Shown: one piece after another, positions 11,528 through 24,658 of the stretch
Layout: each line of letters opens with the position of its first letter
Numbering within the stretch: position 1 is the first letter of the stretch
Source: a virus
DNA length: 26,675 bases
IMG/VR virus record: IMGVR_UViG_3300048034_000619
Location: 1-26,675 of that record
Reading direction: 5' to 3' (one strand)
The notes under the pieces: model-generated
Database searches by the model: none
What the model was told of the DNA's origin: nothing
What the model saw: the letters and a program-made list of their open reading frames with translations, nothing else
Translations under genes and position numbers: made by a program

Positions 11528-11730
11528 TGAGAGTAAATATTAAAAATCGTCCTGGCTTACAAAGAGATATTAACTCTGGTGCAGTAATAAATACTGATAT
11601 TACTGCTTACCAAAAAGCATTAAATGCTAAGGCGGCGGCAGAACAAAAAGAAAATGAACTTCAAGATATTAAAAATGAAGTACAGGATTTAAAGATTTTA
11701 ATGAACAAAATAATTGAGAGGCTTAGCTAA
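11527..11730 (+). CDS. Small coiled-coil protein between fibre genes
   Basis: A 67-aa protein. The N-terminus is basic (MRVNIKNRPGLQRDINSGAV), and the C-terminal half (about 27-67) is a charged coiled coil with Leu/Ile heptads (ELQDIKNEVQDLKILMNKII). It starts on the last base of the upstream stop (TAATG) and ends with the same overlap into the fibre gene, so the three are translationally coupled. It is probably a small virion or fibre-assembly factor. I see no closer family assignment. Confidence 0.65.
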   Translation: MRVNIKNRPGLQRDINSGAVINTDITAYQKALNAKAAAEQKENELQDIKNEVQDLKILMNKIIERLS

Positions 11731-12923
11731 TGGCTGTGATTTCAACAAATACGTCAGACACTTTTGAGCAATGGAGAGTAAAAACAAATCAAGTTTCTAC
11801 TTTTATAGGCGATAGTGGAACACTTTCAGGTAGGTATACAGCAACAGATGTAGTTGCAGCTTTGAACGAAATTAAAACAACATCGACCTTTGATAATAAA
11901 ATCACTATTGCAGATCAAGTAGTCGATGGAACTACTGAATTAGCTGGTGATGCGGCTATTCTAAAAATTACAGCTGGTAGCGCAGATGTATTAACACTTA
12001 ATCAAACTGGTAATGTAACAGTTGCGGCTGATCTTTCTACTGTAGGAGCTATAAGTGCTGGTACAACACTTGGTGTAACTGGTAATGCTACAATTGGTGG
12101 TACTACTACATCTCAAGGTCAAGTAATTGCAAACGCTGGTATTGACTGTAATGGAACAATTGAAGTATCAAATAATTTAATAGTTGACGGTAATACTCAA
12201 TTAGGTAATCAAACTACTGATACAGTTGATATTCAAGGTAGTGCAGCTATTGCAAATGGACTTGTAGTAAACGGTGCAGTAACTACTCTTAATCAAGGGT
12301 TAACAGTATCTGGTGCTGCTCAGTTTAATAACGCATTTACTATGGGCGATACTCTTACAGTGGCAAATACGTTTAGTGCCAATGGTAATGTTGTACTTGG
12401 TAATTCAACTGCAGCTGATTTAGTTTCATTTGGATCTAGAGTAAATACTGCAATTGTACCTAATGCAAATAATAGTTATACACTAGGGACTAGTTCTCTT
12501 AAATGGAGTACAGTTCATGCAACTACCTTTAGTGGTACTGCAACTACCGCAAACTACGCTGACTTGGCTGAGCTTTATCTTTCTGATTTTGCATATGAAG
12601 CTGGTACTGTAGTAAGAGTCGGTGGTGAATTTGAAATTACTGCTACTGATGGTAATCATAATCATTCTGTACTTGGAGTTATCTCTGCTTATCCAGCATA
12701 CTTAATGAACAATCAACTAGAAAATGGTATTCCAGTCGCCTTGAAAGGACGTGTTCCTGTAAAAGTCGGTGGTACTGTTAAAAAGGGAGATCGTTTAGTA
12801 GGCGCACCTGAAGGTCATGGTGTAGTAGATAATGAGTCACCTCATGGATTTGCGGTAGCTCTTGAAGATTTTAAAGCTACTAAAAAGAATCCTACTGGTA
12901 TAGTAGAAGCCGTTATTCTTTAA
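11730..12923 (+). CDS. Tail fibre-like virion protein with beta-solenoid repeats
   Basis: A 397-aa protein. Residues 1-50 form an N-terminal attachment segment (NTSDTFEQWRVKTNQ, typical of marine phage fibres). Residues about 60-265 are short Thr/Gly/Asn repeats of the form V-x-G-N-x-x-L/I-G, as in trimeric beta-helical fibres. The C-terminal domain from about 274 begins ANYADLAELYLSD and contains VLGVISAYPAYLMN and GRVPVKVGG. I associate that domain with phage fibre C-terminal or autoproteolytic-chaperone-like domains, without certainty. The last gene of the + strand block, it ends head-on against the inverted island; the two stops overlap by four bases. Confidence 0.75.
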   Translation: MAVISTNTSDTFEQWRVKTNQVSTFIGDSGTLSGRYTATDVVAALNEIKTTSTFDNKITIADQVVDGTTELAGDAAILKITAGSADVLTLNQTGNVTVAADLSTVGAISAGTTLGVTGNATIGGTTTSQGQVIANAGIDCNGTIEVSNNLIVDGNTQLGNQTTDTVDIQGSAAIANGLVVNGAVTTLNQGLTVSGAAQFNNAFTMGDTLTVANTFSANGNVVLGNSTAADLVSFGSRVNTAIVPNANNSYTLGTSSLKWSTVHATTFSGTATTANYADLAELYLSDFAYEAGTVVRVGGEFEITATDGNHNHSVLGVISAYPAYLMNNQLENGIPVALKGRVPVKVGGTVKKGDRLVGAPEGHGVVDNESPHGFAVALEDFKATKKNPTGIVEAVIL

Positions 12924-13387
12924 TCATCATTATACAAATATAGATCTAGTGCGCAAGATACTCTTGTGTGAATTGCGGGTCTGACAGAGTGATATAGGTA
13001 ACTAGGAAAAACTAACATGTCTCCTGTTTTTGGTGCATGGTAAGTTGGATCAGTAGTTTTTCTAAATTTCATATCATAACCACGAGCTACATGTGGCCTA
13101 GGATCATAGAAAACTATTTCACCACCTGATTCAGGATTAGATTCTAAATAGATTACCATTGAAGCATGAGCACCAGAATGAGTATGAGTTTCCATACCTA
13201 CATTTTCATAACGGTTAATCCAAGATTTTATTTCATAATCTTTCCAGTCATGTATATTATGACCAGTCCAATCCTGAATAAAGTCATCAAAATAAAAGTA
13301 AGCGTCATCAATTAAAGATTGTGTTACTTTCTTTTGTAGTCCATCCATAACCCATTCATCATCAATAGGTATTATTTCAAACCTCAT
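12920..13387 (-). CDS. 2OG-Fe(II) oxygenase, HTH/PF13759-like (island, last gene)
   Basis: A 155-aa protein from the start at 13387 (MRFEIIPIDDEW). A longer form from 13444 would overlap the upstream gene by 68 bases; the shorter overlaps by 11. Numbered from 13387, the fold markers are H68-T-H70 in THTHSGAHASMVIYL, then S-G-G-E-I-V-F-Y-D-P-R, G-D-M-L-V-F-P-S-Y-L-Y-H133 and R142. This layout (HxH, sugar-phosphate-like DPR, FPSxLxH, distal Arg) is that of the TIGR02466/PF13759 putative 2OG-Fe(II) oxygenases frequent in marine phages. It would use O2 and 2-oxoglutarate to hydroxylate an unknown substrate. It is a paralogue of the gene at 16371-17027. Substrate and role are unknown; context suggests protein or peptide modification. 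Confidence 0.78.
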   Translation of the reverse strand: MRFEIIPIDDEWVMDGLQKKVTQSLIDDAYFYFDDFIQDWTGHNIHDWKDYEIKSWINRYENVGMETHTHSGAHASMVIYLESNPESGGEIVFYDPRPHVARGYDMKFRKTTDPTYHAPKTGDMLVFPSYLYHSVRPAIHTRVSCALDLYLYNDD

Positions 13388-13811
13388 TAATGTCGGATAC
13401 AGAAAATGTGTTCCCAATTTCAGCGTCATAGTATTTTCGGACATCTAGTACCATTCCTTCAGTTGTAAGTTTACCTTTATTGTTTGCACATACTACACTA
13501 ATTATATTATTGTATGTTACACTATCTTTTCTATATGGAACAAAGTAAGGATCCATTGGAAGAAGTTCTGGATCATTTAGAACATCATAAAAGTTTTCAT
13601 TATAGTCTTCCATTATCCAAAAAGCATAGCATATTGCTACCATATAAGATTTTGATGGATAGATCCAGCCAATATCTTTTTCTCTAAAATATCTGATAGC
13701 ATGGAAAGTAATATCTTCTGTGATTTCAATATCAACATCACCTAAGTCATCTTCATAATCTTTATTTAGTTTATGATATAACTTTTGTTTGATCTTCCAT
13801 TCTTGCATCAT
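13377..13811 (-). CDS. Unknown island protein, 144 aa
   Basis: I do not recognise this protein. It starts at MMQEWKIKQKLYHKL, inside the last codons of the upstream radical SAM gene (41-base overlap); GAGTGG lies just before the ATG pair. The N-terminal half is acidic and probably helical (KLNKDYEDDLGDVDIEITED). Residues 55-75 are aromatic (GWIYPSKSYMVAICYAFWIM) but too broken by Lys and Pro to call a membrane helix. The C-terminal third is mixed alpha/beta. There is no metal motif. Its tight coupling with a radical SAM gene and an oxygenase suggests a partner or substrate-recognition protein; that is inference only. Confidence 0.6.
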   Translation of the reverse strand: MMQEWKIKQKLYHKLNKDYEDDLGDVDIEITEDITFHAIRYFREKDIGWIYPSKSYMVAICYAFWIMEDYNENFYDVLNDPELLPMDPYFVPYRKDSVTYNNIISVVCANNKGKLTTEGMVLDVRKYYDAEIGNTFSVSDINEV

Positions 13812-14703
13812 ACCACTCTAGTAAATTTATATAGCCGTTACAGCTATTATCTAAATCTTTAACATATCTATAATGTTCTGTTAGACAGTGACCCATATAC
13901 TTACAATTATTGCAAATATCTGATAAAGTAATTTTTTCTTGATATGCCCATTGTTGATATGAACCGTAACTTGGTAATTCTAAAAAATATTCATTATCAT
14001 TCTTATCAAATTCTAATACACCAAACTTTCCGTTAGGAGTAATATACACATGGTCATCACTAAATGCATTATAAAGTTTATTGTAACTGTCTTCTATATT
14101 AAACAAATTAATAAATTCAAATTTCTTTTCTACATCTGATTCAAGCCATTTAATTACAAAGTCTTCAAAGTCTTTATGAGTTACATTATGAGCATTTGCT
14201 TGATTAGTCGAATAAGGTTTAATTTCTACAGAGGTAATTGATCTAACTATATTTAGATCTTTAATCATCTCATCAACATCCATTTTTAAAACTTCAGGAG
14301 AAGCTAATATGAGCACAGCAATTGGCTTAGTAGATAACAACATATTTTGATATACCAGGTCTGACTTTTCTCTAGCAGCAAAATCATATGATACACTAAG
14401 TGTTATGTTATCTGCTAAGAAACGATCATCAAGCTTTGAAAAATTAGTATTAATGTTAATACTACCACTATAGTGGCTCCTAATAACTGTAAGTATTTTA
14501 TCGTAGTAACTCCTTTTTAATGCTCCTATTTCTCCTCCATATAAGTCTATATGTTCAATTTTATCATACATTCTAACTTCAAATAATAATTCATCTAGTT
14601 TTTCTGGTTTTATCTTTTTTTGATCACCTAATTGTTCTGGTGTAAGATAACAGAAGTCACATCTGAAATTACAAAAATATGATGGATTAATAGAAATATT
14701 CAT
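13771..14703 (-). CDS. Radical SAM protein with reduced SPASM-like C-terminus
   Basis: A 310-aa protein. The radical SAM [4Fe-4S] motif is at the extreme N-terminus: C11-x3-C15-x2-C18 in NPSYFCNFRCDFCYL. An H-I-D-L-Y-G-G-E-I-G segment near 50 is the S-adenosylmethionine GGE motif. The C-terminus carries C264-x2-C267-x5-C273-x14-C288, the pattern of one SPASM auxiliary cluster. I see no Gly-x4-Cys of the first auxiliary cluster, so it probably holds two rather than three clusters. It overlaps the upstream radical SAM gene by four bases (ATGA), and their N-termini are alike (MxxxIxPxxxCNFxCxFC), suggesting duplication. Reaction and substrate are unknown; SPASM relatives mostly modify peptides. 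Confidence 0.88.
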   Translation of the reverse strand: MNISINPSYFCNFRCDFCYLTPEQLGDQKKIKPEKLDELLFEVRMYDKIEHIDLYGGEIGALKRSYYDKILTVIRSHYSGSININTNFSKLDDRFLADNITLSVSYDFAAREKSDLVYQNMLLSTKPIAVLILASPEVLKMDVDEMIKDLNIVRSITSVEIKPYSTNQANAHNVTHKDFEDFVIKWLESDVEKKFEFINLFNIEDSYNKLYNAFSDDHVYITPNGKFGVLEFDKNDNEYFLELPSYGSYQQWAYQEKITLSDICNNCKYMGHCLTEHYRYVKDLDNSCNGYINLLEWYDARMEDQTKVIS

Positions 14704-15749
14704 AATATCTTAAATTGTGCACTTTCATTTTCATAAGGAGTCATTTGTATACCTTCCATATCGTTTGACGCCAAAATAGCTGGTCCTAAAAGTTTCATAT
14801 TATAACAGTGTTCTTCAACCATATTATGTTTCTTAAGATCTTTAATAGTTTTCTTACACCCATTACATATCTGAAACATAGGACAAGTATAACATCCTTT
14901 CTTTAAACTATTTAGTTCAAAAGAATCTGCAAGTGGAGTAGCAAATCCACCATTCATCTCAAAGTCCCAATCAATAGCTTTTTCTTTATCATCTCCAAAA
15001 GCACCACAAGAATAATAGTCTCCTTCTGGCTGTATAGTTCTAATATGAGAATCACAAGTACGTGTAAGAGGACATATTGTAGCTTCTCCACGTAATCTAT
15101 TCATCATTTGTTGTGTATTGTGTTCCCATTCTGCTAAACCAGCTTGCCATATTTTTACATATTGATAATATATTTTGGCCAGCATATATGGTTTATCTTG
15201 TTCTCCAGATGCCATTGCATAATTAACTTTGCATACAACATCCATTTTTTTAGCTAGCTCTACTGTTCTTATTACTGAGTCTTCGTTTTCTTCTGTAATA
15301 ACAGCAATAAACGAAGGTCTATACCCACAATGTTCTAATACAGCATTTGAGCAATTCCAAAAGTCTTCTTCAGTAAATACAGAATAGTCACCTTTAAGTC
15401 TTCCACTTCCATATTGAAATGACGTAGCAATTCCAACTCTTGGATTCTGAAAGACATCCATCCATTTCTTTGGATTCTTATAAAACGGCCAAAGGTTTGT
15501 AGTTAAAGATATATTCGCAGGTAAATTATTGTCATCACAGTACTTAATTATTTCTCTATAGTACTGTGGATCCATCATTAATGGATCACCACCATTTACA
15601 ATAATAGTTTTAGTTTCTGGGAATCTATCTAAAAACTGATATATTTTAATAAGATCTAGCTTTGAAGCTTTATCTTCTACGAGTTTAGTTGAAGAGCAAA
15701 AAGTACATTTAAAATTACATAACTCAGTTGGCTTAATTATTAAATCCAT
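14700..15749 (-). CDS. Radical SAM/SPASM protein
   Basis: A 349-aa protein with C11-x3-C15-x2-C18 (PTELCNFKCTFCSS) at the very N-terminus and a V-N-G-G-D-P-L-M motif near 55 for S-adenosylmethionine binding. The C-terminal third is a SPASM domain: a Cys, then G-D-Y-Y-S-C (the Gly-x4-Cys of auxiliary cluster I), then C-Y-T-C-P-M-F-Q-I-C-N-G-C and a late Cys in EEHCYN. Three iron-sulfur clusters are therefore expected. SPASM enzymes typically modify ribosomal peptides (thioether, C-C crosslinks) or proteins. The start codon lies inside the end of a 37-aa ORF and has no strong ribosome site, so it probably depends on coupled translation. ATGA joins it to the next gene. Confidence 0.9.
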   Translation of the reverse strand: MDLIIKPTELCNFKCTFCSSTKLVEDKASKLDLIKIYQFLDRFPETKTIIVNGGDPLMMDPQYYREIIKYCDDNNLPANISLTTNLWPFYKNPKKWMDVFQNPRVGIATSFQYGSGRLKGDYSVFTEEDFWNCSNAVLEHCGYRPSFIAVITEENEDSVIRTVELAKKMDVVCKVNYAMASGEQDKPYMLAKIYYQYVKIWQAGLAEWEHNTQQMMNRLRGEATICPLTRTCDSHIRTIQPEGDYYSCGAFGDDKEKAIDWDFEMNGGFATPLADSFELNSLKKGCYTCPMFQICNGCKKTIKDLKKHNMVEEHCYNMKLLGPAILASNDMEGIQMTPYENESAQFKIL

Positions 15750-15853
15750 GATATTCCATTTAGTATTCTGGCCGCATGTCTAGGAGAATAATTGTTGATA
15801 CAAATATACTTAACAAGACTACGTCTATAGTGCCAAAGTAATACTTCATCCAT
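15740..15853 (-). CDS. Small ORF, 37 aa, coupled between oxygenase and radical SAM genes
   Basis: Reading the 103-base gap on the - strand gives an open frame that starts on the last base of the upstream oxygenase stop (TAATG at 15855-15851) and ends 10 bases inside the radical SAM gene. It begins MDEVLLWHYRRSLVKYICIN and ends NYSPRHAARILNGISWI. It is basic, with one Cys and several Trp, Tyr and His. The exact fill of an otherwise unexplained gap and stop/start overlaps at both ends argue that it is translated. It could be a short peptide substrate, a leader that couples translation, or a remnant. Nothing identifies its function. Confidence 0.45.
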   Translation of the reverse strand: MDEVLLWHYRRSLVKYICINNYSPRHAARILNGISWI

Positions 15854-16356
15854 TAGTATAGTGCCGGTATCAAATATTCAAATGATAATACTCTTCTTTC
15901 TCCAGTTTTGTGAGCTGCTCTGTGTTCAAAACATTTTTTCTGATTTAGCCAAACAAAATCTCTTCGTTTTGGATATAATGTAAAATGGTAATCATGTGTT
16001 TTAACTTGAATATTATTACCATTGTGTTTTGTATTATCATCTAAATAAATTAGTATATTAGAATTAAATTTATTACTATCTTCAAAATCGTTATGCCATT
16101 CTCGGGATCCATGATCTACACCACTCCACATAGCACAGTCTTTCATTTCAAAATCATCAAATAGTTTAGAAACATAATTATCAGCCAGCCATTTATGAAT
16201 AATTGCTAGATCAAACTCAGCTTCAGGAGCTGTCCATAGATTTTCTGGTTGAGTGCAGTCTACAAAATTAAATTTATCAAATCGATCTATATCTAAGTTA
16301 CTTGGTAATGTTCCATGCCAGTAGCCGTCAATAAAGAACGTCTGCTCGTCAGTCAT
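15853..16356 (-). CDS. 2OG-Fe(II) oxygenase, HxD type
   Basis: A 167-aa protein from the ATG at 16356; the in-frame TTG at 16368 would start inside the TTGGGAA ribosome site. The motif W-S-G-V-D-x5-E-W-H88-N-D90 gives the HxD half of the facial triad. A distal His (H145 or H149 in CFEHRAAHKTGERR) and Arg154/155 would complete the Fe(II) and 2-oxoglutarate site. The family is the double-stranded beta-helix oxygenases similar to prolyl hydroxylases. It is clearly related to the gene at 17307-17819 (same W-x-G-V-D...W-H-x-D block). The substrate is unknown. The stop overlaps the start of the 37-aa ORF. Confidence 0.75.
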   Translation of the reverse strand: MTDEQTFFIDGYWHGTLPSNLDIDRFDKFNFVDCTQPENLWTAPEAEFDLAIIHKWLADNYVSKLFDDFEMKDCAMWSGVDHGSREWHNDFEDSNKFNSNILIYLDDNTKHNGNNIQVKTHDYHFTLYPKRRDFVWLNQKKCFEHRAAHKTGERRVLSFEYLIPALY

Positions 16357-16370
16357 ATTGGTTCCCAAAG

Positions 16371-17027
16371 TTACACCGTATGTTGAGTTCTCTTATTCCT
16401 TAACTCGTCACCTTTATTTACCACTTGTGCATTTACTACAAGTGTAAGTCTTTCTTCATTACCATGATAGTGTGTAACTTCATGCCACAAAAATTGAGGA
16501 GCAATAACAACCATTCCTCGTTTTGACTTGATCTTTTCTAACTTAGACCCACCAAAGTAATAGTTTCTTTGCCACCTAGGATCATACAAAGCTAGTTCTC
16601 CGCCTTCATCTTCTTCTACATCGTTAAAATATATGCAAGCAAAAGCATCATCAGAATAATGTGTATGGGCTCCAAGTCTAAATCCATTCTTCATTAAGTT
16701 AATTTTACAAGAATCTAATTCAACATCAAGAATCATGGTTTCGGTATTTGACTCTGATAATGTATCAATATTGTTATATGCTAAAGCTAAAAAGCCTTTT
16801 TTAACTTCATCAATAAGTTCTGACATCTCAGGGCATTGACCTTCAACAATAGCATCAATAACAATATTCTCATTGCCATCTTGGTATTCAGCATGATCAA
16901 TATCTACATTAGATAAAAAATCTAAATGCTGAGCTCGTAAGAAACTTTCAACTGCTTGAAGTTTTTCTTCACTAATATCTAATTGCTTTTGGTAAATATT
17001 AGTTGGGTATATCTGTTTAATTGCCAT
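16371..17027 (-). CDS. 2OG-Fe(II) oxygenase, TIGR02466/PF13759-like
   Basis: A 218-aa protein. The N-terminus I-Y-P-T-N-I-Y-Q-K-Q-L is the typical family opening (FPTPIY in relatives). The catalytic region reads G-A-H121-T-H123-Y-S-D-D, A-C-I-Y-F-N, G-G-E-L-A-L-Y-D-P-R, G-M-V-V-I-A-P-Q-F-L-W-H182, then R193. It is the full-length paralogue of the gene at 12920. An exact TATAAATA on the - strand lies 33 bases before the ATG (TATTTATA at 17061-17068), so it may have its own late transcript. Hydroxylation of an unknown target is expected. Confidence 0.82.
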   Translation of the reverse strand: MAIKQIYPTNIYQKQLDISEEKLQAVESFLRAQHLDFLSNVDIDHAEYQDGNENIVIDAIVEGQCPEMSELIDEVKKGFLALAYNNIDTLSESNTETMILDVELDSCKINLMKNGFRLGAHTHYSDDAFACIYFNDVEEDEGGELALYDPRWQRNYYFGGSKLEKIKSKRGMVVIAPQFLWHEVTHYHGNEERLTLVVNAQVVNKGDELRNKRTQHTV

Positions 17028-17029
17028 TT

Positions 17030-17335
17030 TTAATTCTCATCATTAGGTTTCTCATACCCATATTTATACACGCACTCTTGTTCATAGTTAGTTTCACTAA
17101 TAGAATCTACACCTTCTATATCACAAATTTGCCTGTTGCAAACACGGATCTCTTCTTTTATCATATTTGCATATGGTTCTAGGTTATCAATCATTTTAAG
17201 ATACATTTCGTATTTATCTTTTACGTCCTGAAAGTCATGCATCTTAGTTATCCATAAGTTATACAACTCGGCTGTAAGATCTCTTTCTTTACATAGAATT
17301 GTTTTCTTATTCAGTACGTCCTGTAGAGTAGTCAA
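17030..17335 (-). CDS. Small helical island protein, 101 aa, probable TTG start
   Basis: I do not recognise this protein. The first codon is TTG at 17335, which follows a strong AGGAGG about 10 bases upstream, inside the end of the preceding oxygenase gene (29-base overlap). The next in-frame ATG (Met32) would remove a third of the protein. It is mostly helix, Lys/Glu-rich and probably coiled coil over residues 1-75. Three Cys (two in CNRQIC, one near the end) and an acidic tail follow. It ends two bases before the next gene. It could be a partner or adaptor; nothing more can be said. Confidence 0.55.
   Translation of the reverse strand: MTTLQDVLNKKTILCKERDLTAELYNLWITKMHDFQDVKDKYEMYLKMIDNLEPYANMIKEEIRVCNRQICDIEGVDSISETNYEQECVYKYGYEKPNDEN
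17061..17068 (-). promoter_or_regulatory. T4-type late promoter inside the island
   Basis: The + strand reads TATTTATA, so the - strand has an exact TATAAATA ending 33 bases before the ATG at 17027. The site is within the 3' end of the 101-aa gene. The spacing equals that of the gp8 promoter at 4879. It would give late expression of the distal half of the island. Confidence 0.6.
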
Positions 17336-17819
17336 AAGAACATATCCTCCTTCTTATTTTTGTATCATTAGCTTTATGCCAAAATCCTCTAAGATTTGAA
17401 ACCATAAAAAGATCACCAGCTATCGGTTGGTACATTGCTGTTTTATCACTATCCCATTTAAAATTAATTTGACCGCCGCTTTCTAAATAAGTATGATCTA
17501 AATAGTATAAGAAAAATACATCATAGTCTTCAAACATATCTGTATGCCAACCTTGATTATCTTTATCTACTCCATCCCATACTAGATACTTATTAAAAAT
17601 AGCTTCAGGCCATTCTGGTAATATATACTTATGATAAAGTGATTGGCCAAATAGGTTTAATTTATTAGCTAAAAGATTATCAATATCTTCTTTACCATTA
17701 TCTCTTGCTCTTTCTTCAGTATTGAGAAGTTTATGGTCGTTAATCTTTATTAAATCTAGGCCGTCAGGCTCATAGAACTTGACGTATCCCTTTGTATATA
17801 TGTCTGAGACATTAAACAT
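17307..17819 (-). CDS. 2OG-Fe(II) oxygenase, HxD type
   Basis: A 170-aa protein. The ATG at 17819 is supported by GGAGGT nine bases upstream, although it overlaps the B12-type radical SAM gene by 64 bases. Catalytic markers: W-D-G-V-D-x5-G-W-H92-T-D94, F-F-L-Y-Y-L, S-G-G-Q-I-N-F, A-G-D-L-F-M-V-S-N, then H148 and the R156-R158 run. The HxD...H triad and distal Arg fit 2-oxoglutarate/Fe(II) oxygenases of the prolyl-hydroxylase class. It is a paralogue of the gene at 15853. The substrate is unknown. Confidence 0.8.
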   Translation of the reverse strand: MFNVSDIYTKGYVKFYEPDGLDLIKINDHKLLNTEERARDNGKEDIDNLLANKLNLFGQSLYHKYILPEWPEAIFNKYLVWDGVDKDNQGWHTDMFEDYDVFFLYYLDHTYLESGGQINFKWDSDKTAMYQPIAGDLFMVSNLRGFWHKANDTKIRRRICSFDYSTGRTE

Positions 17820-19483
17820 TTCTTACTTACCTCCGATATAATATATAGTCTGTTTCTTTCTAAAAATTCATTAATAGTATCCACTCTAAATTTACCACCT
17901 AGCTGTCGGATACTACGGGGCGGAGTGTTAGGATCAAATATATCTTTTATTTCATCTCCTATCTCCTTAAAATCTGATAGATTTATTATAACACAAAACA
18001 CGTGCTTTGTAAACCCCTGAGGTGAAATTAAATCAATAAAAAGTGGATAAAATTTCTGTAGGATATAATTTGCGGCATTATTCATAAACCACATTTCCAT
18101 CATCTCTTCTTCTGTAAAAGAGTAGCATGAACTAATTGTTTTGAAATATGTTTTCTTATTTTTATATAGGCTATTCCAATTATCACTACCATCTTCATCT
18201 ACAATATCACTATAGACTTCCACAGTCTGGATCTCATGCTTATCTTTATATTCTTGTGAGTTTAGCCGTGAATCAGGTAAGAACATATAATCATGTCTAA
18301 ATGATCCCCATGCCTGAAAGTTCCATATAACTTCCATCTCATTGTAAAAGTCTTCAAGAGTAGAACCTGGCATAGCAAGGATAAGTTCTAAAGCTGGTAC
18401 AGGGAATCCATGTTCTTGACATCTTTTATTAATATATCTACTTAACTCTAGTTTATTTTCTGTTGTTAGATCTATCCTATCAGCTAATTTCATTGCTTCT
18501 TCTGAGATACTTTGAATTGACACTGTAGGTACAACTGAAATGTATTCAGTTTCTCCCCACATATCAGTTCCACCTTCTGACTTAGAATGTTTTTCTGGTC
18601 CAGTGCCTACAATATCAAACCAACGATCTATAAGTCTTTTACGTCTATCTAGTGATTTAGATTTCATTGTAGATATATCAGTAAGATTAAAATTGTTTTC
18701 CCAGCCATAAGAAAATATTTCTAGATCTCTATCTTCAAAGGCACCAAAGTTTGCATCAGTTAAATAAGCATCTCTATATCCAGCTTTTTTCATAGCATCA
18801 ATATCTCTTTTTACAATTGAGACATCTTTTTTATAGATCTTAGTATTAATACCTCCACCCCATTCACAAAAGACACATTTATAAGGGCAACCTCTTGTAG
18901 TTTCAATAATAATAAAAGGTTCCATCTTATTATCACGGGCATAGTCTACAGATTCTTTTAAGTATTCTTGGTGATCTTCATATACTGAATAATCTTCTTT
19001 TGCTAGGTCATGAACTCGGCCACCTATAGACCTTAGTTCCCATGCAATCTTATCTGGCTCTAATGTACCTTCAATATAATTGTTAATAAGATCTTCCATA
19101 AATGGTTCACCAGGCTTAGTTGGCTGACAAATAAAATCATATTGTGGTCTAGCTTCTAAGAGTTCTGGTTCATTAGTGCCAATATGTGGACCACCAAGTA
19201 CAAGTATTTTTTCGGGATGATCTTCTTTTATTTGTTTAGATAACCCATCAATAATTGTATAGTTCCAAGCATAAGAACTAAACATAATAATATCAGCTTC
19301 AATTATCTCTTTAATAACTTCATCAAAAGATTCGTACTTATCCCATTTGTAAGGCGCAGGAATCCAGTTAACCTGATTAGCATATTTGCCAAACCGATTA
19401 TAGTAACTCTGTACTATGAGGTATGTCATATTGTTGGCCAAAGACCAATCAGCATGAGGTGGATTAATGAAGGCTATCTGCAT
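17756..19483 (-). CDS. Cobalamin-binding-type radical SAM protein
   Basis: A 575-aa protein. Residues 1-150 look like a Rossmann-type B12-binding domain: IAFINPPHADWSLANN at the start, ADIIMFSSYAWNY, and V-L-G-G-P-H-I-G-T near 95-103. The radical SAM motif follows: T-T-R-G-C199-P-Y-K-C203-V-F-C206-E-W-G-G-G. The CxxxCxxC-E-W-G-G-G form after an N-terminal B12 domain is typical of class B radical SAM enzymes, which methylate unactivated carbon or phosphorus centres or do other B12-assisted chemistry. The last 200 residues are an unassigned helical domain. No DxHxxG is present, as is normal in this class. Without B12 supplied by the host it would be inactive if it follows that class. Confidence 0.85.
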   Translation of the reverse strand: MQIAFINPPHADWSLANNMTYLIVQSYYNRFGKYANQVNWIPAPYKWDKYESFDEVIKEIIEADIIMFSSYAWNYTIIDGLSKQIKEDHPEKILVLGGPHIGTNEPELLEARPQYDFICQPTKPGEPFMEDLINNYIEGTLEPDKIAWELRSIGGRVHDLAKEDYSVYEDHQEYLKESVDYARDNKMEPFIIIETTRGCPYKCVFCEWGGGINTKIYKKDVSIVKRDIDAMKKAGYRDAYLTDANFGAFEDRDLEIFSYGWENNFNLTDISTMKSKSLDRRKRLIDRWFDIVGTGPEKHSKSEGGTDMWGETEYISVVPTVSIQSISEEAMKLADRIDLTTENKLELSRYINKRCQEHGFPVPALELILAMPGSTLEDFYNEMEVIWNFQAWGSFRHDYMFLPDSRLNSQEYKDKHEIQTVEVYSDIVDEDGSDNWNSLYKNKKTYFKTISSCYSFTEEEMMEMWFMNNAANYILQKFYPLFIDLISPQGFTKHVFCVIINLSDFKEIGDEIKDIFDPNTPPRSIRQLGGKFRVDTINEFLERNRLYIISEVSKKCLMSQTYIQRDTSSSMSLTA

Positions 19484-20471
19484 ATCTAAAAGTCGCCTTA
19501 AATACGCATTCGTCCATGTCTTGTTCTATATGCTTATAGTCTTCTTTAATAAAACATGATAATGGACAACGCTGAAAATATTCACATTCAAAACAATTAT
19601 ACTTGTCTAGAAAGTTCTCAACAATAGTAGGACCACCAAGTTCTTCGGTCTGTGCTTCTTTAAGAAATACAGAACCTGAACATCCCTGAGGCTTAGCACC
19701 ATCGGGCATGATAGTAAAAGAGTTGCCTCTAGTACATATCATTTTATTTGCTGGTTTATCATTTACAAAGTGATCCACGTTTAAACACTTAGGATACTTT
19801 TCTACTAATACTTTATAAAATTCAAATAGATCTCTTTCACTTGGCATTAATACTCTTGAAGTAGCTACTGATGGAAGAAAATGATCAAAGTCACATGTAT
19901 AGTTTTGGTACAATGCATCAAAAAGATAATCACCAGCCACTATACGATCTATATTCTGTTTAGTTGCAACTAGGGAAACCATTGTAATACGATCTTGAAA
20001 ATATCTTAAATTGCGTTCAAATAATTTTAGATCGGCTTTACTAAATCTTCCAGCTGGGTCATAACTAATAGAAAAATTCAGATCATTTTGAGCAAGAAAA
20101 TACATTACTTCTGTATATCTTGTAAAGACTAAATTAGTAATAAAATTAAAATGAACTTCTGCATCTGTATTGCTATCAATATAGAGCATAAAGTCATCAT
20201 ATATGTCTAGGAATCCTTTATCAATCCATTCGTCTTGAAAAAGTTCTCCACCCATTAGATGAATTTTATATGCTTGTTTTCTAGGATTGTTGTTAATCCA
20301 ATCAATAATAGGATCTACTTTAGCAATGATCTCTTTACGGCTAGCACCTACTATATTATTATGGTCTTGTGGGCAGAATACACACTTAAGATTACAGTGT
20401 TCAAATAAGCATACTACTATCTCACCATAACCAACAATCTTTGTTTCAATCAAATCATAAATATCATTCAT
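19464..20471 (-). CDS. Radical SAM/SPASM protein
   Basis: A 335-aa protein with C26-x3-C30-x2-C33 (FEHCNLKCVFCPQDH) and an H-L-M-G-G-E-L-F motif near 75 for S-adenosylmethionine. The C-terminal SPASM-like part has M-I-C-T-R-G-N-S-F, P-D-G-A-K-P-Q-G-C and C-F-E-C-E-Y-F-Q-R-C-P-L-S-C plus a final Cys in DECVF, so two auxiliary clusters are likely. The ATG sits on the last base of the upstream stop (TAATG), giving strict coupling to the 379-aa protein. The end overlaps the next gene by 20 bases. Peptide or protein modification is the family tendency; the actual substrate is not known. Confidence 0.88.
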   Translation of the reverse strand: MNDIYDLIETKIVGYGEIVVCLFEHCNLKCVFCPQDHNNIVGASRKEIIAKVDPIIDWINNNPRKQAYKIHLMGGELFQDEWIDKGFLDIYDDFMLYIDSNTDAEVHFNFITNLVFTRYTEVMYFLAQNDLNFSISYDPAGRFSKADLKLFERNLRYFQDRITMVSLVATKQNIDRIVAGDYLFDALYQNYTCDFDHFLPSVATSRVLMPSERDLFEFYKVLVEKYPKCLNVDHFVNDKPANKMICTRGNSFTIMPDGAKPQGCSGSVFLKEAQTEELGGPTIVENFLDKYNCFECEYFQRCPLSCFIKEDYKHIEQDMDECVFKATFRYADSLH

Positions 20472-21610
20472 TACATTATCGCATATTGATCTCTAAAATC
20501 CTTATTACCATCTAATATTGCTTGTACAAAGTAATGATTTACTGTTTCTAAATCAATAGAAAAGAAAGAACCGGCTGAGTGTTTATATTCAGATTCTACT
20601 TTAATAATAGCATCTAACTGCTTATCAGTCATTTCATCGCCTTGGATGTACTCAATAAAATCTAGTTTAGAAATATCAGCATCTATAAATGATAATTGAT
20701 TAGCTTCATCCCAGCTTTCACCCATCATTACAGTAAACTTAGCAAAAGACTGAATATGTTTAGGTGTAAGATTATTAAAATGAATGTTCTTACCAGCAGT
20801 TGGTTTAGCCAAATACGGTGTAGCCCATATGTCTGGGTTCATAAAGATTGTTGGAAACTCAGAATCATCTTCTAAGATTTCATCATAGTTTGTAAAGTCA
20901 TACTCTTTATTTAAATTTAGCTTTGAGGTAAACCTTTTTGTAAGAAGATGAGCAAAGAATGTTTCTTTAAGCTCACCAAGATACTTTTCTAAATCTTTCT
21001 TAATTAACATAGTAAGTACTGATTTTAGTTCTTTTTTCATCTTACCATTTGCTAAGTAAGTTGCTAATAGGAACTCCATACTAATTGATGATTTATTTTC
21101 AGTAATAAATTTTTTACGGTCATCGGCTGATGGTTTGGCAGAGTTATCAAATATCTTACCAAAGTTTTCAATATCAATTTCATATGGGTTATCAGTGTTA
21201 CCATTGTTTGAAACAAATCTAGCTTGGCCAAAGATTTTATGTTTAAAGACCATAGACTCTAAAAGATCAGTAGCTGCAGCTGTATTAGTTTTCTTAAAAA
21301 TTATATTAAACCAAAGAGACATAATTCTTTTAAATGCTTCACCATCACAATAGATGATAATTCGTTTACCTGTTTGGTCTGTTCGATTACCAAGGGTTGT
21401 AAACATATCCATTGAATCTATAAATGCAGTATTTTTTGATCCTAATAAATTCTTAACTTCAAATGAATGAGCAATAAGCACTCCACTTGTAAGTGTATCT
21501 AAATCTTCTGATACTTTATGGCCGTGTTCTTTTGATACCACGACACGATCAGTAAATACATCAATAATATGGTCTGTCGCTACGTATACTTTCTTAAACA
21601 GATGTAGCAT
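20471..21610 (-). CDS. Unknown island protein, 379 aa
   Basis: I do not recognise this protein. ATG at 21610 (MLHLFKKVYVATDH) is chosen because GGAG lies about 7 bases upstream and the overlap with the preceding gene is then 17 bases; an in-frame start at 21646 would overlap by 53. Residues 1-105 look like an alpha/beta domain with strands VYVATDHIIDVF, RVVVSK, GVLIAHSFEV and RIIIYCDGEAF. The rest is mainly helical and charged, with an aromatic block near 250-280. There is one Cys and no signal or membrane segment. It is translated in strict coupling with a SPASM gene, so it may be an essential partner of that enzyme. That is inference. Confidence 0.7.
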   Translation of the reverse strand: MLHLFKKVYVATDHIIDVFTDRVVVSKEHGHKVSEDLDTLTSGVLIAHSFEVKNLLGSKNTAFIDSMDMFTTLGNRTDQTGKRIIIYCDGEAFKRIMSLWFNIIFKKTNTAAATDLLESMVFKHKIFGQARFVSNNGNTDNPYEIDIENFGKIFDNSAKPSADDRKKFITENKSSISMEFLLATYLANGKMKKELKSVLTMLIKKDLEKYLGELKETFFAHLLTKRFTSKLNLNKEYDFTNYDEILEDDSEFPTIFMNPDIWATPYLAKPTAGKNIHFNNLTPKHIQSFAKFTVMMGESWDEANQLSFIDADISKLDFIEYIQGDEMTDKQLDAIIKVESEYKHSAGSFFSIDLETVNHYFVQAILDGNKDFRDQYAIM

Positions 21611-22265
21611 TTTTGTTCTCCTGTATTGCACCAGTAGCGATGCCATGTGTTAATAGAAACATGGGATTATTTTCGTTAGCCCAGTAACTGTATAAATTAT
21701 TTCCTTTGAACATATACTCGTTAAAATAAGACTTGTAATATGTTTTGTGTTCTTCAATAACATTACCATAAAACATAAAGAATCTTTCGTTCTTTAATAA
21801 GCTTACAAAGTTAACTCCTTCAAGTTCTTTTGTACTATCCTCTGGAAATGATGTTACATAATCTTTAAATTCTGGTGACTCAATAGTATATAAGTTGTAA
21901 AGAGAAAGTGAGTCAAGTTTTTTAGCCCATATTTTTAGAATATCTAGATTAGCATCAATAAATTCTTTTTCAACTAATTCAGTTATACCTTTCATTTCAA
22001 GAAGTAATTCTATTACTCTTGTTTCTAAAATTGGAATATTTACTATAAAGTTAGCATGGAGATAAGCTTGTGTCATCTCATCAAACCCTTCTTGAGTAGT
22101 AAACCCAATATCACAAGGTAATTCTAAATTGCCAAGATAAGTTAATAACTTTGAACCCTGTAATTTAGATTCTTCATAATGAATCATATAAAATGTTTCT
22201 TTATCATTAAAAAATAATTTAAGCTCATCTAACTCAATAGGAGCTGTAGTTTCAATCAATGGCAT
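21594..22265 (-). CDS. Unknown island protein, 223 aa, next to the CHxS protein
   Basis: I do not recognise this protein. It is acidic, Leu/Glu/Phe/Tyr-rich and mainly helical, with no metal motif and a single Cys near residue 51. Notable segments: FYMIHYEESKLQGSKLL, GMKGITELVEKEF-like helices near 90-110 and a Tyr/Asn-rich part near 185-200. It starts three bases after the stop of the CHxS-tail protein and overlaps the 379-aa gene by 17 bases. Its fixed place between a presumed substrate and the rest of the island suggests a binding or escort protein. No similarity to HxsD or to RiPP recognition elements is evident by eye. Confidence 0.7.
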   Translation of the reverse strand: MPLIETTAPIELDELKLFFNDKETFYMIHYEESKLQGSKLLTYLGNLELPCDIGFTTQEGFDEMTQAYLHANFIVNIPILETRVIELLLEMKGITELVEKEFIDANLDILKIWAKKLDSLSLYNLYTIESPEFKDYVTSFPEDSTKELEGVNFVSLLKNERFFMFYGNVIEEHKTYYKSYFNEYMFKGNNLYSYWANENNPMFLLTHGIATGAIQENKNATSV

Positions 22266-22268
22266 AAT

Positions 22269-22838
22269 TTATCGTCTCCCTCTTGAACCATGACATGAAG
22301 AATGACATGATGCATGACATATATCAATTTGTACTGTTGCTGTATTACCTCTAGATGCACTATATTGAGCACGTAAATCAGCAAACTTTTGTTCTAATAC
22401 GTTATCATCAATTATTTGGCCTGTTGAAATACTAACTGCTCTAGCTTGTAATGATTGTTGATATGAAGTATTCATGTAAGCAATTCCTGATACATTAGTA
22501 ATAATGCCTGGTGATGCCTGAGTACCAGTATTACCACCAGCACCAGTAACATTTAATAATGCATTTAAATTACGAATTGATGAATAGGATACAACTTCAG
22601 CTTCTAATACATCTTGGATACCTGAGGCATCAATAAGTTCACCGTTATTTTTAATAGAGTTACCATTTACTCCAATAGCTCGGCCCGATGTTGTTCCACC
22701 AAAATATGCTGTACTAAACTGCGAAAATGGAACGTTATTTGTTCCATATGAAATACCTGCATTAGCTGTTGGAGGTACATAATCTGCAAAACGGTTTACT
22801 ACGTTTTGTTCTTCTACTGGGTTAGTTAATGATACCAT
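22269..22838 (-). CDS. Putative modified virion protein with C-terminal Cys-His-Xaa-Ser repeats
   Basis: A 189-aa protein. Residues 1-172 are Gly/Asn/Ser/Thr-rich with no Cys, His or Trp and contain VPFSQFSTAYFGG, a pattern I associate with marine phage fibre-tip or fibre-associated proteins (weak). Residues 174-189 read CHASCHSSCHGSRGRR: three perfect C-H-x-S units followed by a basic end. All Cys and His of the protein are in this run. GAGG lies about 7 bases before the ATG. The gene begins inside the end of a full SPASM radical SAM gene (17-base overlap), with a possible late promoter 89 bases upstream. The likely role is substrate or precursor of radical SAM chemistry, or a metal-binding fibre tip. 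It is partly like HxsA but uses a tetrad, not a triplet. Confidence 0.75.
   Translation of the reverse strand: MVSLTNPVEEQNVVNRFADYVPPTANAGISYGTNNVPFSQFSTAYFGGTTSGRAIGVNGNSIKNNGELIDASGIQDVLEAEVVSYSSIRNLNALLNVTGAGGNTGTQASPGIITNVSGIAYMNTSYQQSLQARAVSISTGQIIDDNVLEQKFADLRAQYSASRGNTATVQIDICHASCHSSCHGSRGRR
22284..22319 (-). repeat. Three 12-bp direct repeats coding for CHxS
   Basis: On the - strand the 36 bases are three units of TGTCAT-NNN-TCA (variable codons GCA, TCT, GGT), coding for CHAS, CHSS and CHGS. The same Cys, His and Ser codons are used in each unit, indicating recent repeat expansion or strong constraint. They sit 15 bases before the stop codon. Confidence 0.9.
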
Positions 22839-23859
22839 TATATTCCTCGTTTAATTCTTTCATTAAAAATCTTGGAGCTCCACAAATATCGCCTTCCCAC
22901 GCCAATTGATGACAGTCTCCTTTACAGTATTTATACACGTTACACTCATAACATCGTGGATCTCTTTGCAATTCTTCCATGATAACATTACATCTTTTTG
23001 GTGCATTTATAACAACTTCAGGAGGTTCCATAATATGACCAAAGGCTGATGTGGGTGCAGAGTTAGGACATCCAGCAATAGATCCATCACCATTTATTGT
23101 AAACAGTTTTTGCTCACAGTCTCTACAGAATGTACCAGCACCTGTATATCCAGTTTCAAATTTAGAATATACATTTTCCATAAACTCATTATCAAACCAA
23201 TTTCTTGCATCATTGTCTTTTATAAACTTATGCATATCAAGAAAGTATTTTTGAAGAGCTAAATTAGATGGAAATACTGGATTGCGTGTTGCATTACCAT
23301 CATAAGTAATACGTTCAAGGGCCATTTCCTGTACACCTAAACTTTTTACATAATGCATTAATTTAGCTGGACCCATTTCAATAGTATCATTTGTAAGTGA
23401 TACAAATAGTTTAATAGTATATCCACGGTCTAATAGTAACTTAACATTTGATTCCCATAAAGCTCTTTGTTTTTCGTTATCAAATCGTATTGTTGGATCC
23501 CATGAAGTACCCATACGTTTTTCACAAACTTCGTCTAAAAATGCTAATCGTTTTTCTGTTAACTTAAGTACAAGGTTAGATGTAATACCATAAGTAGCTG
23601 AACCATTCCATTTTTCTTGAGTCAATTCATAGAATCTCCATAAGTCTTCTACGGGAGCAAGAAAAGGCTCACCTCCGTGAAACTCAAAATGAGTATTCAT
23701 TTGAGGTCTTAAGTCTTTTAATTCATTACACCACTTTGCAACAGCATCAGGATTAAAATAAATTTTAGCTCCGTTTATACCATTTGTAAAGCAGTGGTTA
23801 CAATTGAGATTACATGTCTCCGTCGTTTTGACGTAGATCATAGTATCATTATTTAGCAT
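22822..23859 (-). CDS. Radical SAM/SPASM maturase next to CHxS protein
   Basis: A 345-aa protein with C16-x3-C20-x2-C23 (TTETCNLNCNHCFTNG), H-G-G-E-P-F at 61-66, and a complete SPASM domain. The latter includes Gly-rich G-D-G-S-I-A-G-C, then C303-x2-C306-x5-C312-x3-C316 and C326, implying two auxiliary [4Fe-4S] clusters besides the SAM cluster. This is the architecture of peptide maturases (anSME, sactipeptide, ranthipeptide, HxsB-like). The start at 23859 has AGGA 5-6 bases upstream. A TATAAATA on the - strand lies 34 bases upstream. The stop lies inside the first codons of the CHxS protein gene, a classic maturase-substrate pairing, but activity is not shown by sequence. Confidence 0.9.
   Translation of the reverse strand: MLNNDTMIYVKTTETCNLNCNHCFTNGINGAKIYFNPDAVAKWCNELKDLRPQMNTHFEFHGGEPFLAPVEDLWRFYELTQEKWNGSATYGITSNLVLKLTEKRLAFLDEVCEKRMGTSWDPTIRFDNEKQRALWESNVKLLLDRGYTIKLFVSLTNDTIEMGPAKLMHYVKSLGVQEMALERITYDGNATRNPVFPSNLALQKYFLDMHKFIKDNDARNWFDNEFMENVYSKFETGYTGAGTFCRDCEQKLFTINGDGSIAGCPNSAPTSAFGHIMEPPEVVINAPKRCNVIMEELQRDPRCYECNVYKYCKGDCHQLAWEGDICGAPRFLMKELNEEYNGIIN
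22928..22935 (-). promoter_or_regulatory. Possible T4-type late promoter before the CHxS protein
   Basis: The + strand reads TATTTATA (an exact TATAAATA on the - strand), inside the radical SAM gene and 89 bases before the CHxS start at 22838. The spacing is longer than the 33-41 bases seen elsewhere, so it is less certain. It would give extra copies of the CHxS protein relative to its maturase. Confidence 0.4.
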
Positions 23860-24272
23860 TCAATTCCTATTGATAACATAGTGGAGTCATACATATTTAT
23901 AGCCTCATGAGAAGTGCCAGCTGGAATAGAAATATACTCTCCTGCTTCTATAACATAATGGATATTATCAACAATCATCATTTTTTTACCTTCAATAACA
24001 TATATAAATACGTCTATAGGATCAGTATGCATCGCAAATGATTTAGAATCCTGAGGAGAAATATATAAATGTACGGTATGTTTTTTAGTTATACCAAGCT
24101 TTTGAGTGATACTTTTATACTCATCTTCCAGCCCTTCAATCTTAACTGTAAATTTAGCTTCAGCAATATATCTACTTGTAGACAAAAGAGGGATCTCATG
24201 GTCTCTTCCAATGTCATCAATGTAAAAAGATTTTGAACCTTTATGTAATATGTCGATCATTCTAAAATCCAA
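23853..24272 (-). CDS. Single-domain cupin, first gene of the island
   Basis: A 139-aa protein. Cupin motif 2 is complete: G111-x5-P117-x-G119-x2-H122-x3-N126 (GEYISIPAGTSHEAIN). Motif 1 is partial, with H82-x-D84 and E94-G95 (MHTDPIDVFIYVIEGK). One metal-bound domain is likely (H82, D84, H122). Functions range from isomerase or dioxygenase to ligand sensor; none can be chosen. It overlaps the SPASM maturase by seven bases and is first behind a divergent promoter region, so it may be an enzyme of the pathway or a chaperone. The ribosome site is weak. Confidence 0.75.
   Translation of the reverse strand: MDFRMIDILHKGSKSFYIDDIGRDHEIPLLSTSRYIAEAKFTVKIEGLEDEYKSITQKLGITKKHTVHLYISPQDSKSFAMHTDPIDVFIYVIEGKKMMIVDNIHYVIEAGEYISIPAGTSHEAINMYDSTMLSIGIEC
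23894..23901 (-). promoter_or_regulatory. T4-type late promoter before the SPASM maturase
   Basis: The + strand reads TATTTATA, an exact TATAAATA on the - strand, ending 34 bases before the ATG at 23859. Spacing matches the gp8 and oxygenase sites. It would place maturase and CHxS protein under late (virion-time) control. Confidence 0.65.
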
Positions 24273-24297: not shown

Positions 24298-24326
24298 ATT
24301 ATATATCATAATGCAGGAAAAGTAAA
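24298..24326 (-). promoter_or_regulatory. Possible sigma70-type promoter for the island
   Basis: On the - strand, TTTACT (24326-24321; four of six bases match TTGACA) is 17 bases upstream of a perfect TATAAT (24303-24298). The transcript would start near 24291, about 19 bases before the cupin ATG at 24272. It suggests that the host polymerase could transcribe the island before late genes are active. AT-rich DNA produces chance matches, so confidence is limited. Confidence 0.45.
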
Positions 24327-24658
24327 TGGCAATTTATGCAAATTTAGTAGTAGACCAAGGAACAGACTTTTCATCTTTTGTAACGTTAGAAGATACTGCT
24401 GGTGCAACTGTTGATTTAACAGGATATACCGCTGCTGGTATGATTCGTCGTACTTATTTATCTACAACTAAAGTTGACTTTACTACATCAATTCCAGATC
24501 CAACAACCGGAGAAATTAAGATTCAATTAGCTTCTTCTGTCACAGGTGGAATGAAAGCTGGAAGATATGTTTATGATTTAGAAATTACTTCATCAGGCGG
24601 AGCGGTATCAAGAGTGGTCGAAGGCCAACTTGAAGTTAATCCAGGCGTAACATACTAG
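24326..24658 (+). CDS. Small beta-sandwich virion protein, BppU-N-like
   Basis: A 110-aa protein, all beta: DQGTDFSSFVTLEDTAG, VDLTGYTAAGMIRRTY, then a Y-V-Y-D-L-E-I-T-S strand and V-V-E-G-Q-L-E-V-N-P-G-V-T-Y. This is the pattern of the N-terminal domain of BppU-type phage baseplate proteins and of related short virion proteins (VxLTGYT near 35, PG near the end). It follows a late promoter and the divergent gap and opens the second fibre block. It is probably a fibre-base or adaptor protein. Confidence 0.7.
   Translation: MAIYANLVVDQGTDFSSFVTLEDTAGATVDLTGYTAAGMIRRTYLSTTKVDFTTSIPDPTTGEIKIQLASSVTGGMKAGRYVYDLEITSSGGAVSRVVEGQLEVNPGVTY

Follow-up and report, generated by a model that had tools for sequence, protein, structure and literature searches.

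A minus-strand island of radical SAM and 2OG-Fe(II) oxygenase genes beside phage tail-fibre genes, with a CHxS-tailed protein as its putative substrate

Gene content of the island

The window analysed here covers positions 1 to 26,675 of the IMG/VR virus record IMGVR_UViG_3300048034_000619, in which a T4-like virus hosts a minus-strand island with tail-fibre genes on both flanks and, farther to the left, genes for a baseplate wedge protein and a 1763-aa DUF4815 protein. The island encodes five radical SAM (rSAM) enzymes, four 2OG-Fe(II)-type oxygenases, one JmjC-like cupin, and a protein with a C-terminal CHxS tail. A preliminary description had placed the island at 12920-24272 within a fibre-gene setting, correctly on both counts, and the tight minus-strand packing that it reported was also seen, although 15 ORFs were counted instead of about 16. 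The features are:

11730-12923, plus strand: tail-fibre gene, left flank (phrog_22593/19602)
12920-24272, minus strand: whole island, 15 tightly packed ORFs, flanked by plus-strand genes
12920..13444, minus strand: g1, 2OG-Fe(II) oxygenase (PF13759); true start probably Met6, at about 13429
13377..13811, minus strand: g2, conserved protein (phrog_20737) with many invariant residues
13771..14703, minus strand: g3, radical SAM enzyme, core class
14700..15749, minus strand: g4, radical SAM/SPASM-like enzyme, core class
15853..16368, minus strand: g5, 2OG-oxygenase-like, homologous to the g8 family (phrog_19592; no Pfam match)
16371..17027, minus strand: g6, 2OG-Fe(II) oxygenase (PF13640, phrog_81; HxH...H...R)
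17030..17335, minus strand: g7, small protein, occasional
17307..17819, minus strand: g8, 2OG-Fe(II)-oxygenase-like (weak Pfam match; HxD...H...R intact)
17756..19483, minus strand: g9, B12-binding radical SAM enzyme, KedN5-like methyltransferase subfamily, optional
19464..20471, minus strand: g10, radical SAM enzyme, core class (phrog_1802)
20471..21646, minus strand: g11, conserved protein; true start probably Met13, at about 21610
21594..22265, minus strand: g12, conserved protein, core (phrog_20767; predicted fold, pLDDT 92.8)
22269..22838, minus strand: g13, CHxS protein, 189 aa, proposed substrate (body 1-173 plus 16-residue tail)
22272-22319, minus strand: codons of the 16-residue C-terminal tail of g13, CHASCHSSCHGSRGRR
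22822..23859, minus strand: g14, radical SAM/SPASM enzyme, core, directly adjoining the CHxS gene
23853..24272, minus strand: g15, cupin, JmjC-like (possible hydroxylase), core (PF07883 and PF08007 above cut-off)
24326-24658, plus strand: L-shaped-tail-fibre-assembly-like gene, right flank (phrog_3304)
24886-26361: structural protein, to the right of the phrog_3304 gene

All five rSAM enzymes of the preliminary description were recovered by Pfam scores and orthologous rSAM classes taken together: g3, g4 and g9 score above the Pfam radical SAM cut-off, and g10 and g14 fall in clean orthologous rSAM classes despite scores below it. Across 23 diverse members, g14 possesses the CxxxCxxC motif and the C-terminal auxiliary-cluster cysteines of a SPASM enzyme (invariant C16, C20 and C23; C248, C264, C303, C306, C312, C316 and C326), and it scores 27.8 bits against the generic SPASM domain TIGR04085 (cut-off 27). 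Both the B12-binding and the radical SAM Pfam domains of g9 exceed their cut-offs, and its score against the KedN5-type family NF033712 is 89.9 bits, where the cut-off is 700. In NCBIfam, all rSAM enzymes of the island score below the cut-offs of the peptide-maturase families.

Four 2OG oxygenases had also been proposed; g1 and g6 exceed their Pfam cut-offs, g8 matches weakly, and g5, without a Pfam match, shows the motif WHND...H...R in its translation. The iron triad and the arginine for 2OG are present in the g8 family, g6 and g1: H92, D94, H148 and R157 are conserved at 98-100% among 103 relatives of the g8/g5 type, g6 carries the HxH variant with H182 and R193, and g1 carries H87, H152 and R161. 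The cupin assignment of g15 agrees with its invariant HxD...H triad (H82, D84 and H122, each at 100%). The predicted fold of g12 has no match in the PDB (Foldseek).

The CHxS tail noted earlier is present in g13, with the pattern match at 22282-22319 (minus strand), and shuffled sequence gave 0 matches in 100 shuffles. For structure prediction, rows from annotated records were left out of the alignments; the AF2 model of g13 has a predicted folded body (pLDDT 85.6) and a disordered tail. The body fold recurs in the CHxS proteins of Atu_ph07, where gp170 ends in FCHSSCHASCHNSRSRR, and of DT01, despite sequence divergence. Across relatives the CHxS protein is 120-310 aa long with a confidently folded body of 100-290 aa. 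The g13 fold matches nothing in the PDB (Foldseek), g13 has no NCBIfam match, and profiles of g13, g12 and g11 found only chance-level matches among PDB sequences.

Conservation of the module and its place beside fibre genes

CHxS bodies diverge to about 20-30% identity; some lack BLAST similarity, and in others similarity is limited to the last 56 residues. Searches for g13 by tblastn against cultured phages and by back-translated patterns returned no relatives because the body diverges too fast, and a 25-aa tail query in tblastn was uninformative, returning nothing and missing known carriers too. A DNA pattern of the tail was used instead of body similarity and is present in at least 120 IMG/VR stretches. 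With two exceptions, the viral matches that were checked are open frames ending exactly in (CHxS)3-R-x-R-R-stop, a pattern kept in more than 150 ORFs. Two viral matches and seven matches on genome contigs, all without the RxRR stop, were rejected as chance.

Relatives of g14 are present in 386 viral stretches. Among 72 evaluable loci reached independently through g14, the tail is present in 69 and its gene directly adjoins g14 in 59; in all 69 tails the C, the H, the first S, R13, R15 and R16 are retained. Two loci found in this way have no tail in their records, which are fragments of 11-18 kb. Conversely, 24 of the 32 tail records with no adjacent g14 in the locus carry g14 elsewhere in the record. 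Each of the tail gene, g14, g12, g11, g10 and g3 is present in 54/54 complete loci, and g4 (51/54), g2 (44/54), g9 (21/54) and g7 (11/54) in fewer. The gene order is shared by more than 100 viral loci, and the island is therefore not a product of chance; judged from sequence, it is one unit. Co-occurrence elsewhere had been set beforehand as a check, and relatives carry the same genes in the same order. Many marine and giant phages possess the module; it is also present in the cultured jumbo phages Atu_ph07, Phosso, FLC6 and DT01, and chromosomal copies occur in a few predatory Bdellovibrionota.

The position beside tail-fibre genes is likewise kept across relatives. The module usually starts 0-15 bp 3' of a tail-fibre gene; a fibre gene lies directly upstream in 31 of 33 class-2 loci, at a median gap of 2 bp, and in 83 class-1 loci, where the median is 15 bp, and the C-terminal domain family of the 11730-12923 fibre gene precedes the module in most relatives. 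Fibre or tail genes adjoin the module in the cultured jumbo phages, and the Bdellovibrionota copies adjoin pilin/Peptidase_S74 fibre genes, with neighbours bearing pilin-type N-termini. The CHxS protein is thus encoded directly with fibre genes. In the virion proteome published for Atu_ph07 (ESI-MS/MS; PMC6102473), the virion-protein cluster spans CDS 170-215, of which the first gene, CDS 170, is the CHxS gene. This cluster boundary points indirectly to a place of the CHxS protein on the virion, most likely at the fibre tip or associated with the fibre.

A proposed maturation system and its alternatives

The conserved module, the invariant tail, the intact enzyme motifs and the fibre linkage are read directly from the sequences. 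From these we infer, with a probability of about 0.6, that the island encodes a dedicated system for post-translational maturation, with the tail of a virion-borne CHxS protein as its substrate. Under this model, g13 would be a small folded virion protein whose gene accompanies the tail-fibre gene or follows it directly. Its variable body would supply the fold, and modification would fall on the flexible, invariant tail (C-H-x-S)3-R-x-R-R. Together, g14, g10, g4 and g3 would install radical-derived bonds at the Cys, His and Ser of all three repeats, candidates being Cys thioethers or cyclophane-type C-C links from His to Ser. The JmjC-like cupin g15 and the 2OG enzymes would hydroxylate, the optional B12 rSAM enzyme g9 would methylate, and g12, g11 and g2 may be recognition or scaffold subunits. 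The modified tail would then serve host attachment or fibre-tip stability. The preliminary description had proposed a phage pathway for protein or peptide modification, a reading that co-occurrence, fibre position and the invariant-tail partner support at the level of sequence.

An improbable alternative is a RiPP-like secreted peptide, in which the body acts as a long leader and the (CHxS)3RxRR tail, once modified, is cleaved and released to act, for instance, as a toxin against rival phages or bacteria or as a metallophore. An rSAM/SPASM enzyme beside a Cys-rich C-terminal core does resemble RiPP loci, and the best weak NCBIfam matches of g14, all below cut-off, are peptide maturases. However, no recurrent peptidase or exporter is found among the module genes across relatives, the body is predicted with confidence to be a folded domain, unlike a leader, and the locus adjoins fibre genes and borders a virion-protein cluster. 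Similarly unlikely is that the tail, with little hydroxylation or no modification at all, binds a metal (Fe, Cu or Zn) at the tip of the fibre, while the rSAM enzymes act elsewhere (on the fibre or a small molecule). A Cys/His tail could bind metal by itself even when unmodified, the Cys-His unit is repeated three times, and metal ions are coordinated by His motifs in T4-type fibre tips. An iron 'Ferrojan horse' role of phage tails has also been discussed in the literature. This reading leaves unexplained, however, why the tail is almost always paired with four rSAM classes and why the Ser and RxRR are equally invariant.

Less probable again is a pathway whose product is a small molecule or a modified nucleotide or glycan, with the CHxS protein as a carrier or scaffold bearing the intermediates on its tail. 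The enzyme number is very large for one short tail, DHFR-like genes lie within the cluster in some relatives, and B12 rSAM methyltransferases often belong to natural-product pathways; yet the conserved genes include no recurrent ligase, carrier-loading enzyme, glycosyltransferase or export gene, and the fibre-gene link is constant. DNA-base or sugar modification is not favoured, as such genes are not recurrent in the module. A separate sugar pathway, raised beforehand as a competing account, is likewise not what the loci contain: the constant partner is a protein whose Cys/His/Ser/Arg tail is invariant, not sugar or nucleotide genes.

Extending the maturation model, a more tentative proposal is that three-repeat tails on attachment fibres form a polycyclic or metal-binding 'chemical tip' for attachment or entry in phages and some predatory bacteria. 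Up to nine or more radical enzymes, with hydroxylases, would build the tip, and the predatory bacteria would share the system by transfer or common origin. If so, the tip would be the first virion structure built by radical SAM enzymes.

The system looks like a previously undescribed way to finish chemically a protein on or near the host-attachment fibre; open-access literature yielded no paper on the tail motif or on 'phage-encoded radical SAM'. If the maturation model is true, phages carry a widespread, undescribed class of genes through which radical SAM enzymes mature a virion protein next to the host-recognition fibre. The peptide chemistry would be new, with four to nine or more rSAM enzymes per 16-residue tail, and phage-host attachment would gain an extra layer. 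The model would also link the fibres of phages to the machinery with which Bdellovibrio-like predators attach to prey, and many phage rSAM/2OG genes listed as metabolic or accessory would need reinterpretation. The proposed substrate motif is testable in the cultured phages Atu_ph07, Phosso, FLC6/FLC8/SURPRISE13 and DT01, in part with existing virion mass-spectrometry data.

Comparison with known systems

The island matches no known RiPP family. In place of a short leader and core peptide with a protease or exporter, it has a 120-310 aa protein with a folded body, and neither gene is recurrent. The His-Xaa-Ser system (HxsABCD; TIGR03976-03979) also has C-terminal H-x-S repeats beside radical SAM enzymes, whereas here the unit is C-H-x-S, repeated exactly three times and followed by RxRR, in phage fibre loci; membership was rejected, with g14 at 27.4 bits against HxsB (cut-off 370) and g4 at 28.1 against HxsC (cut-off 267.9). 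CXXX-repeat and cyclophane/ranthipeptide maturases share the SPASM rSAM enzyme and C-terminal repeats with 3-4-residue spacing, but here the proposed substrate is folded and apparently retained, and four rSAM classes occur together. Scores of 19-45 bits place the island outside the CXXX-repeat family TIGR04115, FxsB (TIGR04269), PapB (NF047865) and DynA (NF041298), with cut-offs of 340-450, and outside the cyclophane (FxsB, GrrM, DynA) and CXXX-repeat maturases as a whole (cut-offs at least 310). Maturases of quinohemoprotein amine dehydrogenase (TIGR03906) and anaerobic sulfatase (TIGR03942) similarly direct an rSAM/SPASM enzyme to a folded or larger protein, but the scores (22-37 bits) lie far below the cut-offs, and the substrate and genomic setting differ.

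The preliminary description knew of no phage cluster of this richness, a claim that does not stand: Campylobacter phages CP220/CPt10 have 11-12 rSAM genes, five of them in one interchangeable module, which were read as metabolic genes (PMC2853527). No relatives of g12 or g14 were found in CP220/CPt10 by tblastn. The arrangement of a small variable protein directly downstream of a long fibre gene resembles that of T-even phages. In the latter, the adhesin gene 38 lies directly behind fibre gene 37; to our knowledge gp38 has no maturation enzymes, and no sequence or fold relation was found between it and the CHxS protein. The MAT fibres of Bdellovibrio are phage-like S74 fibres used by predators, with no rSAM genes reported (PMC10769870). 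The Bdellovibrionota CHxS clusters likewise adjoin S74 proteins, but differ from MAT fibres in that their neighbours carry pilin-type N-termini.

Organization of the module in the window

The window (26.7 kb, an IMG/VR record) carries a T4-like baseplate and tail block on the + strand, within which 15 minus-strand genes, g1 at the left end to g15 at the right, lie between a tail-fibre gene (end 12923) and a tail-fibre-assembly relative (start 24326). The preliminary description had placed about 16 minus-strand genes between fibre genes, of which the placement holds but the count does not, and its inventory of five radical SAM (rSAM) enzymes, four 2OG oxygenases, one cupin and a CHxS-tailed protein was found in the window in full.

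Genes of the module (12920-24272, - strand)
g3, g4, g9, g10, g14, -: rSAM enzymes, g9 with a B12 domain
g1, g5, g6, g8, -: 2OG-Fe(II)-type oxygenases
g15, -: cupin
g2, g7, g11, g12, -: conserved proteins of unknown function
g13, 22269..22838, -: CHxS protein, 189 aa, C-terminus CHASCHSSCHGSRGRR

Judging from conservation, g1 probably starts at Met6 and g11 at Met13, each later than the longest-ORF start. The module is inverted in the window and in its closest relative, L150. Upstream of the fibre gene, positions 6236-11527 encode a DUF4815 protein (1763 aa; phrog_358, a family without functional annotation) that also neighbours the module consistently in relatives.

Distribution in phages and association with tail fibres

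The module is real and widespread. The same block was found by tblastn with g12 and g14 queries in the cultured jumbo phages Agrobacterium Atu_ph07, Sinorhizobium Phosso, Burkholderia FLC6, FLC8 and SURPRISE13, and Pseudomonas pPa_SNUABM_DT01, where the proteins after g14 mostly lack any BLAST relation, yet the C-terminus is always (CHx[SA])3-R-x-R-R. A DNA pattern for the tail, which left the final Arg and the stop codon free, matched at least 120 IMG/VR stretches; except for L033 and L046, the matches listed are ORFs closed by the tail, which runs for 16 residues from its first Cys to the stop, and in L095 the contig breaks off within the tail ORF. From an independent start, an rSAM-alignment search returned 386 related viral stretches, and among their best loci with room to judge, the tail is present in 69 of 72 and adjoins g14 in 59, these locus counts being without deduplication (78 g14 proteins form 21 groups at 65% identity). 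For one of the three remaining loci, the tail pattern matches twice at other places in the same record. Co-occurrence in other viral genomes, proposed earlier as a check, is thus borne out by the cultured phages and the rSAM-found loci.

The genes are usually arranged as cupin, g14, CHxS, g12, g11, g10, (g9), 2OG genes, g4, g3, g2. Of 54 loci with sufficient flanking sequence, all contain CHxS, g14, g12, g11, g10 and g3; next in frequency come g4 and g15 (51 each), a g8-type 2OG gene (48), g2 (44), g6 (36) and g9 (21). In the rSAM tree, g14, g10, g4, g3 and g9 form separate classes, the enzymes of the cultured phages belonging to the first four, and active-site residues of the rSAM, 2OG and cupin enzymes are conserved in relatives' sequences. 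Phosso has an additional g10-class gene about 5 kb from its main cluster (L006:5871-6788), and two dihydrofolate-reductase-like genes lie within the module of Burkholderia phages (L008:20216-21429 and L010:20001-21178). Three loci of the second, tandem class (L055:728-6269, L073:8562-12884 and L129:1941-9282) encode about five further proteins bearing a CxxxCxxC motif of the LxGCxxxCPGCF type, and one of these proteins has a weak Radical_SAM match (E 0.0045); some phages may therefore use nine or more rSAM-like enzymes.

The expected position beside fibre genes is also kept. In 83 class-1 loci, the cupin is closely preceded (median gap 15 bp) by a gene that shares its C-terminal fibre domain with the window gene at 11730-12923, and in 31 of 33 tandem-class loci the CHxS genes follow immediately on the end of a fibre-domain gene (median 2 bp). 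In 64 loci, the third gene upstream encodes a DUF4815 baseplate/fibre protein, and module neighbours in the jumbo phages are likewise tail-fibre or tail/virion proteins. According to the Atu_ph07 virion ESI-MS/MS paper (PMC6102473), virion proteins come mostly from clusters CDS 31-76, 170-215 and 284-329; CDS 170 is the CHxS gene, and the numbering agrees with that of the paper for tail sheath gp140 and lysozyme gp141. From this cluster boundary, the CHxS protein is likely to be located on the virion.

The CHxS protein and its cellular copies

The 69 tails of rSAM-found loci always contain exactly three repeats and show no variation in the Cys and His of any repeat, in the first Ser or in the three Arg; in a few, Asn or Ala takes the place of the second and third Ser. 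Body identity falls to about 0.3 where g14 is still at 0.45, while the tail is unchanged; the tail is therefore the part under strongest selection. AlphaFold2 predicts for g13 a confident alpha/beta body (pLDDT 85.6) with a disordered tail, and a fold search returned no match in the PDB. In a viral structure library, the fold matches the CHxS proteins of DT01 and, without sequence similarity, Atu_ph07 (E 2e-7), and it is also present in three larger proteins, of 504-660 aa, from a single uncultured phage, Myoviridae ctijX18 (BFVD A0A8S5USJ7, A0A8S5USJ8 and A0A8S5USV2). A second CHxS family consists of short tandem genes (120-145 aa) that have only the last 56 residues in common with the first.

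The tail pattern also occurs in 10 of 369 genomes of Bdellovibrionota, the phylum of a Bdellovibrionaceae carrier; at least 8 of the 10 have real tail genes, and the match in genome G146 looks like a simple repeat. Chromosomal CHxS/rSAM clusters were found at eight loci (L246, L247, L248, L249, L250, L251, L252 and L253), several amid ordinary genes such as ribosomal S20, acyl-CoA genes, cytochrome oxidase, FeoB and nucleotidyl transferase. On 4 of the 8 contigs, a neighbouring protein has a Peptidase_S74 fibre chaperone domain, in some cases with a pilin-type N-terminus, and Bdellovibrio recognises prey through S74 fibres (PMC10769870); the attachment-fibre link of the module therefore recurs outside phages. 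Beside the S74 protein is a small protein ending RHWVKVK or RHWVQVK (L248:929-1528, L250:17150-17704, L253:1563-2156 and L247:7194-7823), which has no Pfam match.

Proposed maturation and comparison with known systems

Gene order supports a scheme in which the CHxS protein would be produced together with the late fibre genes. Near-obligate pairing suggests that g14 and the other rSAM enzymes would work three times over on the invariant tail, g12 and g11 being putative helpers; hydroxylation by the cupin and 2OG enzymes, and methylation by g9 where present, may follow. Indirect evidence points to the virion carrying the matured protein at or near the fibre, where, speculatively, it could form a hardened or metal-binding tip used in attachment.

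The enzyme superfamilies are already known, as is the maturation of peptides and certain proteins by rSAM enzymes. In the family libraries and open-access literature searched, neither this module nor its proposed substrate motif, its protein fold or its setting turned up, and the FLC6 and SURPRISE13 papers give single genes of the module as accessory. In a family-library search, no module protein reached the scoring threshold of the His-Xaa-Ser, three-residue cyclophane or thioether-type families. The C-x-x-x-C spacing of the tail would fit thioether chemistry, and its H-x-S spacing is the same as that of the His-Xaa-Ser and three-residue cyclophane systems.
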